NCBI RefSeq assembly: GCF_001742225.1
Contig: NZ_CP017077.1
Span: forward strand, 372,001 to 436,000
DNA from: Novosphingobium resinovorum
GTDB lineage: Bacteria; Pseudomonadota; Alphaproteobacteria; Sphingomonadales; Sphingomonadaceae
Reading direction: 5' to 3'
Length of the DNA stretch: 64,000 nucleotides
A model generated the notes under the pieces. It was not told the origin of the DNA. It ran no database searches and saw nothing but the letters and a program-made list of their open reading frames with translations. The translations under genes and the position numbers were made by a program. Every line of letters begins with the position of its first letter. The stretch's first letter is position 1. Below, piece by piece: positions 9,882-13,302 of the stretch.

Positions 9882-10092
9882 TTACGCGTTGCACCACAGC
9901 CTCACGCAGATGAGCTTGATGGCCGCGAGATAGTTGGCAGCGTCCTTGTCGTATCGCGTGGCGATGCCCCGGAACTGCTTGATCCGATTAAAGAAGCGCT
10001 CGACGAGATTACGCTGGCGGTAGAGCCATGACGAGAAGTCGAAGCGCTGCTTACGGTTGGAGCGGTTGGGAATGTTGGCCCAGATGTTTCGG
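9882..10092 (-). pseudogene. IS5-family transposase, C-terminal part
   Basis: The frame reads NIWANIPNRSNRK, then the conserved C-terminal block SSWLYRQRNLVERFFNRIKQ with the catalytic glutamate of the DDE triad (the E of LVERFF), then IATRYDKDAANYLAAIKL. It ends at a TAA 13 bp inside the IS end. It is separated from the N-terminal part by the serine-recombinase element. Excision leaving a single GCCGCC would restore IREAARNIWANIP in frame. Confidence 0.85.
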
Positions 10093-10132
10093 GCCGCCGC
10101 TATCACATGTTCATTCTGCCCATGTCGGGCAG

Positions 10133-10591
10133 ATGGTAGAGTTTCACTACCGTTGGCATCCATATTACGGCGGCCGTTTTCGGTATGAAGGCCGCGAGGA
10201 TCGGGCCAGTGGTGCGATTGTCCGGGTAGAGATCAGGCCGGGCGAGATCATTCAGGTTTCGGAGTGGATGCTGGATAGGGCGTTTTGCGCTGGTATGGCG
10301 ATGGGCGAACCGCGGATTGCGGTGACTGGCCTCGTGGAGCTTCATAGACTGCTTACCGATCGCGGTTTCAGGCAGACTTCGTCGGATGGTCTCACCCCCA
10401 TCCAGGAGGCGCCCTGTGAAGGCATTACCACCACCCTCGACGTTACCGATGCTGGCCCGTCAGTTGAGCATGCCGCTCGATATGCCGCAGATTCGGGGCC
10501 TGACCGACGCGGAACGCAGCACGGTTGTCGCCAAGTTGGCGACCCTCCTGATGGCGGCGGCCGGCGTCGCGGCGAAGGAGCCGAGCGATGA
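10133..10591 (+). CDS. Small conserved gene of the recombinase element (unassigned)
   Basis: The frame from the ATG at 10133 reads MVEFHYRWHPYYGGRFRYEG, then GAIVRVEIRPGEIIQVSEWMLD and CAGMAMGEPRIAVTGLVELHRLL. This gives a compact, probably beta-rich domain of about 90 residues, reminiscent of small proteins (DUF5372-like) found beside large serine recombinases. The remaining 60 residues are low-complexity and overlap the next gene by about 175 bp, so the true C-terminus is uncertain. No ribosome binding site is seen before 10133. The same frame is open back to the element border, and in a circular form it would join to an ATG at 12669 (see findings). Confidence 0.5.
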   Translation: MVEFHYRWHPYYGGRFRYEGREDRASGAIVRVEIRPGEIIQVSEWMLDRAFCAGMAMGEPRIAVTGLVELHRLLTDRGFRQTSSDGLTPIQEAPCEGITTTLDVTDAGPSVEHAARYAADSGPDRRGTQHGCRQVGDPPDGGGRRRGEGAER

Positions 10592-10601
10592 CGGGCAATA
10601 A
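10416..10601 (+). CDS. Small 61-residue gene preceding the serine recombinase
   Basis: A GTG at 10416 is preceded at six bases by AGGAGG (10404-10409), a near-perfect ribosome binding site. The product is short and ends with a helix of the type GLTDAERSTVVAKLATLLMAAAG. The last 14 bp overlap the recombinase start at 10588, so translation is probably coupled. Comparable small genes commonly sit before recombinases of this type. Its function is unknown; an accessory or directionality role is a guess from position only. Confidence 0.65.
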   Translation: MKALPPPSTLPMLARQLSMPLDMPQIRGLTDAERSTVVAKLATLLMAAAGVAAKEPSDDGQ

Positions 10602-12654
10602 TCTCATTCCGGCCACGGTGCTTAATCGCAAAGCTGTCGTCTACGTTCGGCAGTCCACCTCGGGCCAGGTCCAGAACAACCTGGAGAGCCAGCGGCGTCA
10701 ATATGAACTTGTCGATGTTGCGCGCCGCTGGGGGTTCCGTGATGTCGAAGTGATCGACGATGACCTCGGCCGTACCGCCAGTGGCGCTGCCGACCGCCCT
10801 GGTTTCGAACGACTGGTGAGCGGCCTGTGCACAGGTATGGTCGGCGCGGTGCTGTGCCTGGATGCATCGCGCCTTTCCCGTAATGGTCGAGACTGGCATC
10901 ACCTCCTGGAACTGTGCGGCCTGGTGGAAGCGCGCGTGATCGATCTCGATGGCGTGTATGATCCTTGTCGACCGAATGATCGCTTGTTGTTGGGCATGAA
11001 GGGCAGCATCAGCGAGTTTGAGCTCGGCATTTTGCGAACGCGCATGCTCGACGCGGCGCGCGCTAAAGCACGACGGGGGGAACTGCGCCTCAGTGTTCCG
11101 ATCGGCTATATCTGGCACCGCGATTATGGTCTGGGGCTTGATCCTGACCTTCGGGTGCAGGAGGCTATCCGCCTTATCTTTTCGCGCTTCCGCGAGCTTG
11201 GTAGCGCCCGCCAGGTGCTGATTTCGCTCACCACGGACAATTTCCATTTCCCCCGTCCTTCTGACGGGCGCAAAAGAGTGTCCTTCGATTGGGTGCCGCT
11301 TCGCTATCGGAGCGTCATTTCGATCCTGAAGAACCCGTTCTACGCTGGGGCATACGCCTATGGCAAAAGTGAGAAGCGGACAGAGATTGTCGATGGCAGG
11401 GCTCGCAAAAGCTACGGCCACGGCAAGCCTTTTGGAACGTGGGAAGTGCTGCTCCGGGATCATCATGAAGGCTACATTGATTGGAGCGAGTTTGAGAGGA
11501 ACCAGAGCCTTATTGCCGTTAATACCTTTGCAAAGAAGGGCGGCATCAAATCTGGTCGTGGCGGCCAGGCTTTGCTTGCTGGTCTGCTCACCTGTGGCCG
11601 ATGTGGAAGGCGGTTGTCTGTTTCCTATAGAGGGCGGCCAAGCCATCCCTATTATCAATGCAAAAGTATCAACCAAATGCTGGCCAAACCCCGATGCATG
11701 ACTTTTGGCGCGTCTCGGATCGACCCTGCTATTGGCAAAGAAATATTGAGCGCCGTAACGCCAATGGCAATCGAGGCCGCAATGGAAGCTGACCGGGCGC
11801 ATCGGGATAATCTGGAAGAGCGACATCGCATGATGGAGCTGGACTTGCAGCAAGCGCGATACGAGGCGTCTCTTGCTGAGCGCCGCTATGCCGCTTGCGA
11901 CCCTGACAACCGCCTGATCGCTGCTCAACTTGAGAAGAGTTGGGAATCCGCGCTCAGGCGCGTGGAAACCTGTGAAGCTGCTTTGACGCAGGCAAGACAA
12001 ATCGACGCAGGCATCCCAATCCCCGATTTCGCCGGCATTGCCACTGACTTGGAGGCTGCTTGGAGCGCACCAAACGTCGATACGCGGTGTCGCCAGCAAC
12101 TCCTGCGCACTCTCGTGACTGATATCGTTGCCGATGTTGACGAAGAGCAACGTGAAGTCATTTTGACGATCCACTGGAAAGGTGGTCAACACTCTCAGCT
12201 GCGTATTCGCAAACCGAACCCTGGCGAACATGGCCAGAAAACGCCGGATGCTGCCCTCGCTGTAATGCGGTCCATGGCCACCCGATGGTCCGACGCCGAC
12301 ATTGCCGCTACTCTGAACCGGATGGGAATGCAGACCGGGCAAGGAAAAACGTGGACCGCACGCCGTGTCGGTGCACTGCGCACGGTCCATAAAATCCACG
12401 GATACCGATCTGCTGAGAAGAATGGGGAGTGGCTCACACTGACCGAAGCCGCGAAAAAGCTTGGGGTTACGGCCCATCGCGTCCGTCGACTGATCAAGGA
12501 GGGCGTGCTCCCTACCGAACAAGTTGTACCGGATGCGCCGCACCAAATCCGAGCCGCAGACCTGGAAAAGGACGAGGTGATCCAGTTTCCGCGTTACAGA
12601 GGCCCGTGTCGCATTAAAATGGAAAACCAAAAGTCCCTGTTTCCGGACGTTTGA
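10588..12654 (+). CDS. Large serine recombinase
   Basis: 688 residues. The N-terminal resolvase catalytic domain carries the active serine at residue 23 (YVRQSTSG) and the arginine motif DASRLSRNGRD. It is followed by the recombinase domain (ending with ILKNPFYAGAYAYG), a zinc ribbon (CGRCGRRLS with later cysteines, from about residue 336) and a coiled-coil region rich in E, R and A. An unusual C-terminal helix-turn-helix of excisionase or MerR type follows (LTLTEAAKKLGVTAHRVRRL, about 615-660). It catalyses site-specific integration and excision of the element. Fusion of the excisionase-like domain to the recombinase may let one protein control direction; that is inference. Confidence 0.92.
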   Translation: MTGNNLIPATVLNRKAVVYVRQSTSGQVQNNLESQRRQYELVDVARRWGFRDVEVIDDDLGRTASGAADRPGFERLVSGLCTGMVGAVLCLDASRLSRNGRDWHHLLELCGLVEARVIDLDGVYDPCRPNDRLLLGMKGSISEFELGILRTRMLDAARAKARRGELRLSVPIGYIWHRDYGLGLDPDLRVQEAIRLIFSRFRELGSARQVLISLTTDNFHFPRPSDGRKRVSFDWVPLRYRSVISILKNPFYAGAYAYGKSEKRTEIVDGRARKSYGHGKPFGTWEVLLRDHHEGYIDWSEFERNQSLIAVNTFAKKGGIKSGRGGQALLAGLLTCGRCGRRLSVSYRGRPSHPYYQCKSINQMLAKPRCMTFGASRIDPAIGKEILSAVTPMAIEAAMEADRAHRDNLEERHRMMELDLQQARYEASLAERRYAACDPDNRLIAAQLEKSWESALRRVETCEAALTQARQIDAGIPIPDFAGIATDLEAAWSAPNVDTRCRQQLLRTLVTDIVADVDEEQREVILTIHWKGGQHSQLRIRKPNPGEHGQKTPDAALAVMRSMATRWSDADIAATLNRMGMQTGQGKTWTARRVGALRTVHKIHGYRSAEKNGEWLTLTEAAKKLGVTAHRVRRLIKEGVLPTEQVVPDAPHQIRAADLEKDEVIQFPRYRGPCRIKMENQKSLFPDV

Positions 12655-12688
12655 AGAGGAGGTGCATAATGAACCAGTCGTTGCCGCC

Positions 12689-13226
12689 TCGCGAATGGTG
12701 GTGCTGTCATAGCCCTTGTCGCCGAGCAGGGTAGCGCCCTCGGGGATGGTCTCTATCAGCGCTTCAGCTTCGCACGCATCATGGACCTGCCCACCCGTCA
12801 GTCGCAGGCCGACAGGACGTCCATCAGCGTCGACAAAAGCGTGGAGTTTGGTCGTAAGGCCGCCCCGGGAACGTCCCATGCCATGATCGCTGCATTCCCC
12901 TTTTTGCCCGTCGCACCGTGCTGGTGGACGCGCATGCAAGTAGAATCGATCATCACCAACTCGCCGTTGAAACCGGCGGAAACCGCCGCCAACAATCGGT
13001 CCCACACTCCGGCCTTTCGTCAGCGGATGAACCGGTTGTAGCAGGTCGTCGATGGACCATAGCGCTCCGGGACCTCTGCCCACGGCGCACCAGAACGGAA
13101 ACGCCAGAGTATCCCGTTCAGCACCCGGCGGTCATCGACGCGTGGCACTCCACGCGGCTTGTTGGGCAGCAACGGCTCGATGATGAGCCATTCCTTGTCC
13201 GTCAGTTCATACCGCCGCCGCGTCAT
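12689..13226 (-). pseudogene. IS5-family transposase, N-terminal and middle part
   Basis: From the ATG at 13226 the frame reads MTRRRYELTDKEWLIIEPLL and the block VLNGILWRFRSGAPWAEVPERYGP. It then meets a TGA where relatives have Trp (FIR-stop-RKAGVWDRLL). The same frame continues with the first catalytic Asp (VMIDSTCMRVHQH) to a run AAAAAGGGG, where a -1 shift leads into DHGMGRSRGGLTTKLHAFVDADGRP and the second Asp (LLGDKGYDS). The A5G4 run resembles a programmed frameshift site, but the TGA looks like a true inactivating mutation. Confidence 0.8.
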
Positions 13227-13302
13227 AAGCCCTCCGTTTCCGAAGGCCGCCTGAATCACGCCAAGGCCGACAACTCAACCCGATTTATGAGTTTGCACCC
13301 TA

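Follow-up and report, generated by a model that had tools for sequence, protein, structure and literature searches.

How a mobile element can carry a conserved small gene that has no start codon of its own is the question raised by one locus in the window (the whole 64,000-nucleotide stretch of Novosphingobium resinovorum DNA that was analysed). Here a 2.6 kb large-serine-recombinase element sits in an IS5-type transposase gene, with the body of the small gene at its left end and a ribosome-binding-like stretch followed by a start codon at its right end. The sequence-only reading of this DNA had proposed that excision joins the two ends into one translatable gene. The features concerned are given below in window coordinates.

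10099..12684, + strand: element with both core copies, 2586 nt (borders from IS copies lacking the element and from its two other full copies in this genome)
9882..10098, - strand: interrupted IS5-type transposase gene, 3' part (from flank sequence and empty IS copies)
12685..13259, - strand: interrupted IS5-type transposase gene, 5' part (DUF4096; joined flanks match DDE_Tnp_1)
10100..10591, + strand: small gene body without its own start codon; its stop overlaps the recombinase ATG, and the conserved domain extends to about 10399
10101..10130, + strand: left half of the joined attachment site; TCATTCTGCCC mirrors the right-end GCATAATGA and forms a dyad with the right arm
10416..10601, + strand: ORF 2, with a GTG start and AGGAGG at 10404-10409; overlaps the small gene tail and the recombinase start
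10588..12654, + strand: large serine recombinase of 688 aa with Resolvase, Recombinase, and zinc ribbon domains (Pfam)
12657..12662, + strand: ribosome-binding-like AGGAGG, 6 nt upstream of the ATG at 12669
12669..12682, + strand: start codon and first codons (MNQSL) of the small gene, severed from the body by integration

The interrupted gene is identified by its flanks, which match DDE_Tnp_1 of Pfam once joined. In the recombinase, the resolvase catalytic domain is followed by the recombinase and zinc ribbon domains (PF00239, PF07508, and PF13408, all above their cut-offs), and this domain order, combined with a shared core of two nucleotides, places the element by its sequence among the large serine recombinase elements. 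The same genome contains three full copies of the element and two copies of the IS without it. Since these empty IS copies fix the joint, the core is the dinucleotide GC, the only bases common to both borders (10099-10100 and 12683-12684). The ends had previously been joined through a single GCCGCC, a joint that the empty copies reject; the GCCGCC at either border is largely host sequence. Two of the element copies (C3:382000 and C3:718654) show no difference over 2586 nt despite 11 differences in 500 nt of the IS to their right, so the element must have moved, while the third (C3:277330) differs at 21 of 2586 nt and is hosted by an IS66 transposase gene (the L027 flank). Comparison of the three copies thus reveals recent movement inside one genome.

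With the joint corrected, the circle reads ATG AAC CAG TCG TTG CTA TCA CAT, giving MNQSLLSHV... in place of MNQSLPPLSHV..., and the circle-form small gene, MNQSLLSHVHSAHVGQMVEF..., comprises 168 residues up to the stop overlapping the recombinase start. The AGGAGG at 12657-12662, the ATG at 12669-12671, and the open left-end frame into MVEFHYRW are all present as first described, and because the corrected reading differs by six bases, the single continuous frame from right end to left end is retained. Briefly, the following mechanism is proposed. The large serine recombinase would carry the element, in circular form, into conserved parts of transposase genes, and the attachment site would span the 5' end of the element's own small gene, with the ribosome site, the start, and about five codons on the right and the body on the left. 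Closure of the circle would restore the small gene directly behind the recombinase and integration would separate start and body again, such that the circle, or a tandem array, would yield the product and an integrated copy would yield essentially none. The order in the circle would be recombinase, joint, small gene, ORF 2, and recombinase, with overlaps or gaps of at most 14 nt; given this tight spacing, reading would pass from the recombinase straight on to the small gene, and transcription through the joint would presumably be read-through from the recombinase gene.

Evidence that this layout is maintained comes from 101 loci with a related recombinase, comprising 21 from one search and the best 80 of 174 relatives from another. 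The small gene body, which is further documented by pN/pS calculated by frame and by an alignment of 64 sequences (A1), was detected by tblastn in 89 of them. An ATG with a ribosome-site-like stretch just past or overlapping the recombinase stop was found in all 77 complete relatives (recombinase aligned to at least residue 640 and left end available), at a distance of 14 nt from the stop in 61, 13 nt in five, and 8 nt in one, and overlapping it (ATGA) in ten. Removal of identical insertions left 72 distinct insertions, for which the host transposase reading frame on either side was used to obtain the element length modulo 3 with no border assumed, a length that this frame fixes because integration keeps all host bases. 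With flanks of 130 nt, 54 insertions were in frame and 5 out of frame, the remaining 13 being not evaluable (8 discordant, 4 short, and 1 without a match); with flanks of 500 nt, 52 were in frame and 7 out, with 2 discordant, 8 without a match, and 3 short, and one of these seven (L031) is a script artefact at a contig start. The contig in question, from a draft assembly of Sphingobium wenxiniae, has its first bases exactly at the core GC, which is where an assembly interrupted by repeated copies would be expected to end. Among the insertions out of frame with the shorter flanks, L017, L056, and L060 rest on weak host matches (E 0.0009 to 0.03). Strong matches fail the test at L042 and L043, which in a post hoc judgement from reading the letters appear to carry host frameshifts away from the border. 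At L093 a stop would fall in the joint if the right-hand core is used.

The reservation made at the outset, that the shared frame might be due to chance, is answered by the distribution of stops over the fused 5' region of 60 distinct left ends, since none of the 60 contains a stop in this frame as compared with 59 and 22 of 60 in the other two. A conserved start inside the left end had been named as the finding that would count against the proposal. The ATG of MVEF (codon 12) comes first among the in-frame ATGs in only 17 of 88 relatives, and codon 57 takes that place in 48 of 88; by this comparison the MVEF ATG does not qualify as a conserved start. In 43 of the 72 insertions, no ATG, GTG, or TTG occurs in the first 24 left-end codons. 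For the 39 distinct left ends without an in-frame ATG, GTG, or TTG, pN/pS over codons 8-24 is 0.33 in the gene frame versus 1.98 and 1.17 in the other frames, and for all 60 distinct left ends the values over codons 8-16 are 0.47 versus 1.38 and 1.45. These substitution patterns place the left-end frame under protein-level selection even where no start codon lies inside it, and for a selected frame without its own start, translation must begin at a site that lies upstream, beyond the left end itself. At the right end the signal is weak (codons 2-4, pN/pS 0.71 versus 1.24 and 1.11), as expected if this end contributes little beyond a start.

Application of the window geometry (14 nt, a 2-nt core, 2 nt, codon) to the relatives gave identical core dinucleotides on the two sides in 58 of 71 insertions, whereas a shift by one base gave agreement in 18 of 70 on one side and in 22 of 71 on the other, with 30 of 70 for the best remaining offset. 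The cores found include GC, AC, CC, TA, GT, and CA, and in the left half-site TCATTCTGCCCAT is near-invariant across the 72 distinct insertions. The ribosome-site score at the right-end start averages 5.1 of 6 in these insertions versus 3.4 in shuffles, a control that ignores the choice of the best-scoring site where several candidate ATGs were available. The commonest target is the IS66 transposase gene, entered in both orientations (e.g., L010, L013, L030, and L076) just after one conserved motif (NNxxE...LRG | xxGRK, the bar marking the insertion), which we take to hold the third catalytic residue; Pfam was used to check target identity for 5 of the 68 joined flanks. The right-end ribosome site and start codon of an integrated copy point outward into host DNA, where short fusion peptides might be made.

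The main-family geometry is inherited, so the 77 relatives are not 77 independent events and the independent part of the evidence amounts to about seven lineages. One of these is represented by a second element in the same genome (L135, contig C2), whose recombinase is 34% identical to that of the window and whose small gene is a DUF5372 above the Pfam cut-off. Together with 18 plasmid loci (L138-L155) it forms a distant set of 19, in which each of the 13 testable loci keeps the frame and has its start codon 14 nt upstream of the joint, one of these starts being GTG. The starts were picked by eye via the ribosome-site-like stretch prior to computation of the frame. Host homology is present on both sides of six loci (L135, L138, and L146-L149), all of them in frame, and their targets are TnpB of IS66, IstB of IS21, and an IS3-type transposase; each has a matching dinucleotide 14 nt past the start. 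Other matching dinucleotides lie nearby, and at L149 a long run matches between the sides, but in all six the frame is unaffected by which dinucleotide is the core. A further seven loci (L139, L150, and L151; L141, L153, L154, and L155) are in frame through shared ends, although in the L141 group of four the side dinucleotides differ and the frame rests on an assumed 2-nt core. The other six lie outside the test, namely L140, L142, L143, L144, and L145, which lack host homology, and L152, for which the left end was not found. L145, on a Leptolyngbya boryana plasmid, has a recombinase 36% identical to that of L135 and a ribosome-site-like stretch with an ATG past its stop. By our own grouping the lineages, including the main family, number seven; six recombinases representing different groups are 33-46% identical, with the L141 group at 47% to L135. 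For six further lineages to be in phase by chance at one in three each would occur about 1 time in 700 if they were independent, a figure that serves as a guide only, as the lineages have common ancestry. The right-end ATG and the left-end frame are thus in phase among relatives up to and including lineages with distant recombinases, and the view that the gene gains its start in the excised form is supported by sequence comparison. The borders, the in-frame joint, its conservation, and the selection acting on the frame can be read directly from the sequences, and the recurrence of the same layout in distant relatives suggests a real switch.

This evidence must be weighed against other readings of the locus. 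The right-end ATG might be kept solely as part of the recombinase binding site, with the frame across the joint an inherited accident of no meaning for expression. In the main family, GCAnAATGA on the right does mirror TCATTnTGC on the left at equal distance from the core, with the ATG inside, so conservation of the ATG by itself proves nothing, and the shared geometry of these elements by descent would fit the same account. The ribosome-site-like stretch, however, lies outside the mirrored part, selection on the left-end frame acts at the protein level even where no start lies within it, and ten of the 77 elements keep the signal although the recombinase frame overruns it, the start overlapping the stop. 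The position of the start codon is moreover constant in other lineages, including the L135 group, where a mirror of it at the left is not clear from the letters and one member has GTG and the others ATG. An explanation by binding alone is accordingly considered quite unlikely. Somewhat less improbable, but still doubtful, is that an integrated copy still expresses the small gene, with translation beginning at starts in the host flank or inside the left end, in which case integration would not silence it. For this question 65 of the 72 insertions were tallied, 5 with short flanks and 2 with a broken small gene being set aside. An in-frame upstream start before any stop is present in the host flank of 36 and a start within the first 17 codons in 22 (22 upstream only, 8 internal only, and 14 both), the window copy itself has an in-frame ATG at 10028, and IS66 targets with a TCATGG codon pair supply an in-frame ATG 6 codons upstream of the body (13 of 88 loci plus four plasmid loci). 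Yet 21 of the 65 have neither kind of start between the upstream stop and codon 17, and those starts that do exist score low for a ribosome site: 3 or less in 23, 4 in 12, and 5 in one of the 36 upstream starts, and 3 or less in 21 of the 22 internal ones, as compared with the mean of 5.1 at the joint start, while the ATG at 10028 has no ribosome-site-like stretch. Insertions also occur in both target orientations, and several have a stop beside the border.

As for its product, the small gene could encode a recombination directionality factor acting in excision, as might befit a gene that accompanies the recombinase so constantly (89 of 101 loci). An excision factor would be needed when the element is integrated, precisely where this gene has lost its start, and excision cannot be set off by a factor that integration removes. 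The small protein matched no family and showed no sequence match and no clear fold match to any named factor, weak matches only being obtained. ORF 2 would suit the role better, as a candidate for the missing excision factor; it matched no Pfam or NCBIfam family when scanned from the ATG at 10386 and overlaps a part of the small gene tail that is poorly conserved; there is thus little likelihood that the small protein is the directionality factor. Structure prediction yielded an SH3-like barrel with a C-terminal helix (pLDDT 82.6) and with the first eight left-end residues unstructured. The window protein gave no match to DUF5372 (PF17342) at E up to 1, the Pfam cut-off not being reached, and PF17342 matches were obtained for 4 of 64 of its relatives, with a best E of 0.012. 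As a guess, put at about one chance in three, the small protein might aid the recombinase in the circle and favour insertion into a new target, whereby integration would turn off its own helper. That circle closure restores the small gene and integration parts start from body is the probable explanation of the locus.

Searches for the circular form and for promoters gave the following results. The plasmid, phage, genome, and viral-contig collections searched yielded neither a circle junction nor a tandem copy. In tblastn of the fused N-terminus against plasmids (200 records), none of the 60 matches listed began before residue 3. With the Rhizobium version (180 plasmid records), four of the 60 matches listed begin at residue 1, but these were rejected as circles, being integrated copies with an in-frame ATG in the host flank. 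The fused N-terminus had no match in a sequence search of phages, and in the six of 396 genomes of the order that have a match, none begins before residue 5. A joint pattern that fits the main family only gave 11 matches in viral contigs, none with the small gene, and none in 385 genomes of the class. Of the 60 plasmid matches listed for the small gene, 43 have no annotated feature beneath them, in a collection whose gene table is incomplete. Promoter-like sites were no commoner in the scan than in shuffles and none was convincing; a promoter-like site at 12593-12620, upstream of the right-end ATG, was rejected as a conserved element, a 9-of-12 match occurring in 2 of 62 relatives only. In the L135 group, an AT-rich gap after DUF5372 and ahead of a downstream operon holds a promoter-like site whose match is at chance frequency, and from the position of this gap DUF5372 would end the recombinase transcript in the circle.

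Elements with an attachment site inside one of their own genes (BPs) and circle-dependent expression (Tn916, ICEKp1) are already known. A close parallel is the integration-dependent immunity of BPs-type mycobacteriophages, where the attachment site likewise lies inside the phage's own gene and integration alters the product: 33 residues are removed from the C-terminus of the repressor, which is active in its integrated form (PMC4557955). On the present annotation the attachment site again lies inside an element gene whose product is altered by integration, but it is the start codon and ribosome site that are lost and the circle that holds the complete gene. In Tn916 and other ICEs, including ICEKp1, the joint similarly brings in expression signals after circularisation, though in the portions of these reports drawn on it brings a promoter to intact genes (PMC11658703, PMC13023037), whereas here it would assemble the coding sequence together with its translation start. 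Excision by a serine recombinase also rebuilds a gene in the case of skin of C. difficile and gin of B. cereus, where, as far as the cited passages go, the rebuilt gene is the host's (PMC5025042, PMC5595907) and not, as here, the element's own, rebuilt on the circle. Multi-targeting large serine recombinases share the two-base core and the use of several target genes and are described, in the sections cited, for their target specificity (PMC10083194), while the feature of interest here is a gene restored at the joint. In the open-licence PMC papers searched, no mention of DUF5372 was found, nor any description of a start and body assembled on an element by circularisation across transposase-preying lineages.

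A broader proposal, which we hold tentatively and at somewhat less than even chance, is that these form a widespread class of minimal elements parasitic on the transposase genes of other mobile elements in alpha- and betaproteobacteria and carrying a self-erasing switch, in which a DUF5372-like gene would be translatable only in the circle, steer the recombinase to a new target, and be dismantled with each insertion. If true, recombination on the mobile element would itself put the coding sequence together, and a single protein would report the circular state with no regulator. Such a switch would explain why members of a conserved recombinase-adjacent protein family mostly have no start codon and escape annotation when integrated copies are sequenced, would give a DUF a testable function, and may offer a simple natural design for a circle-only excision reporter.
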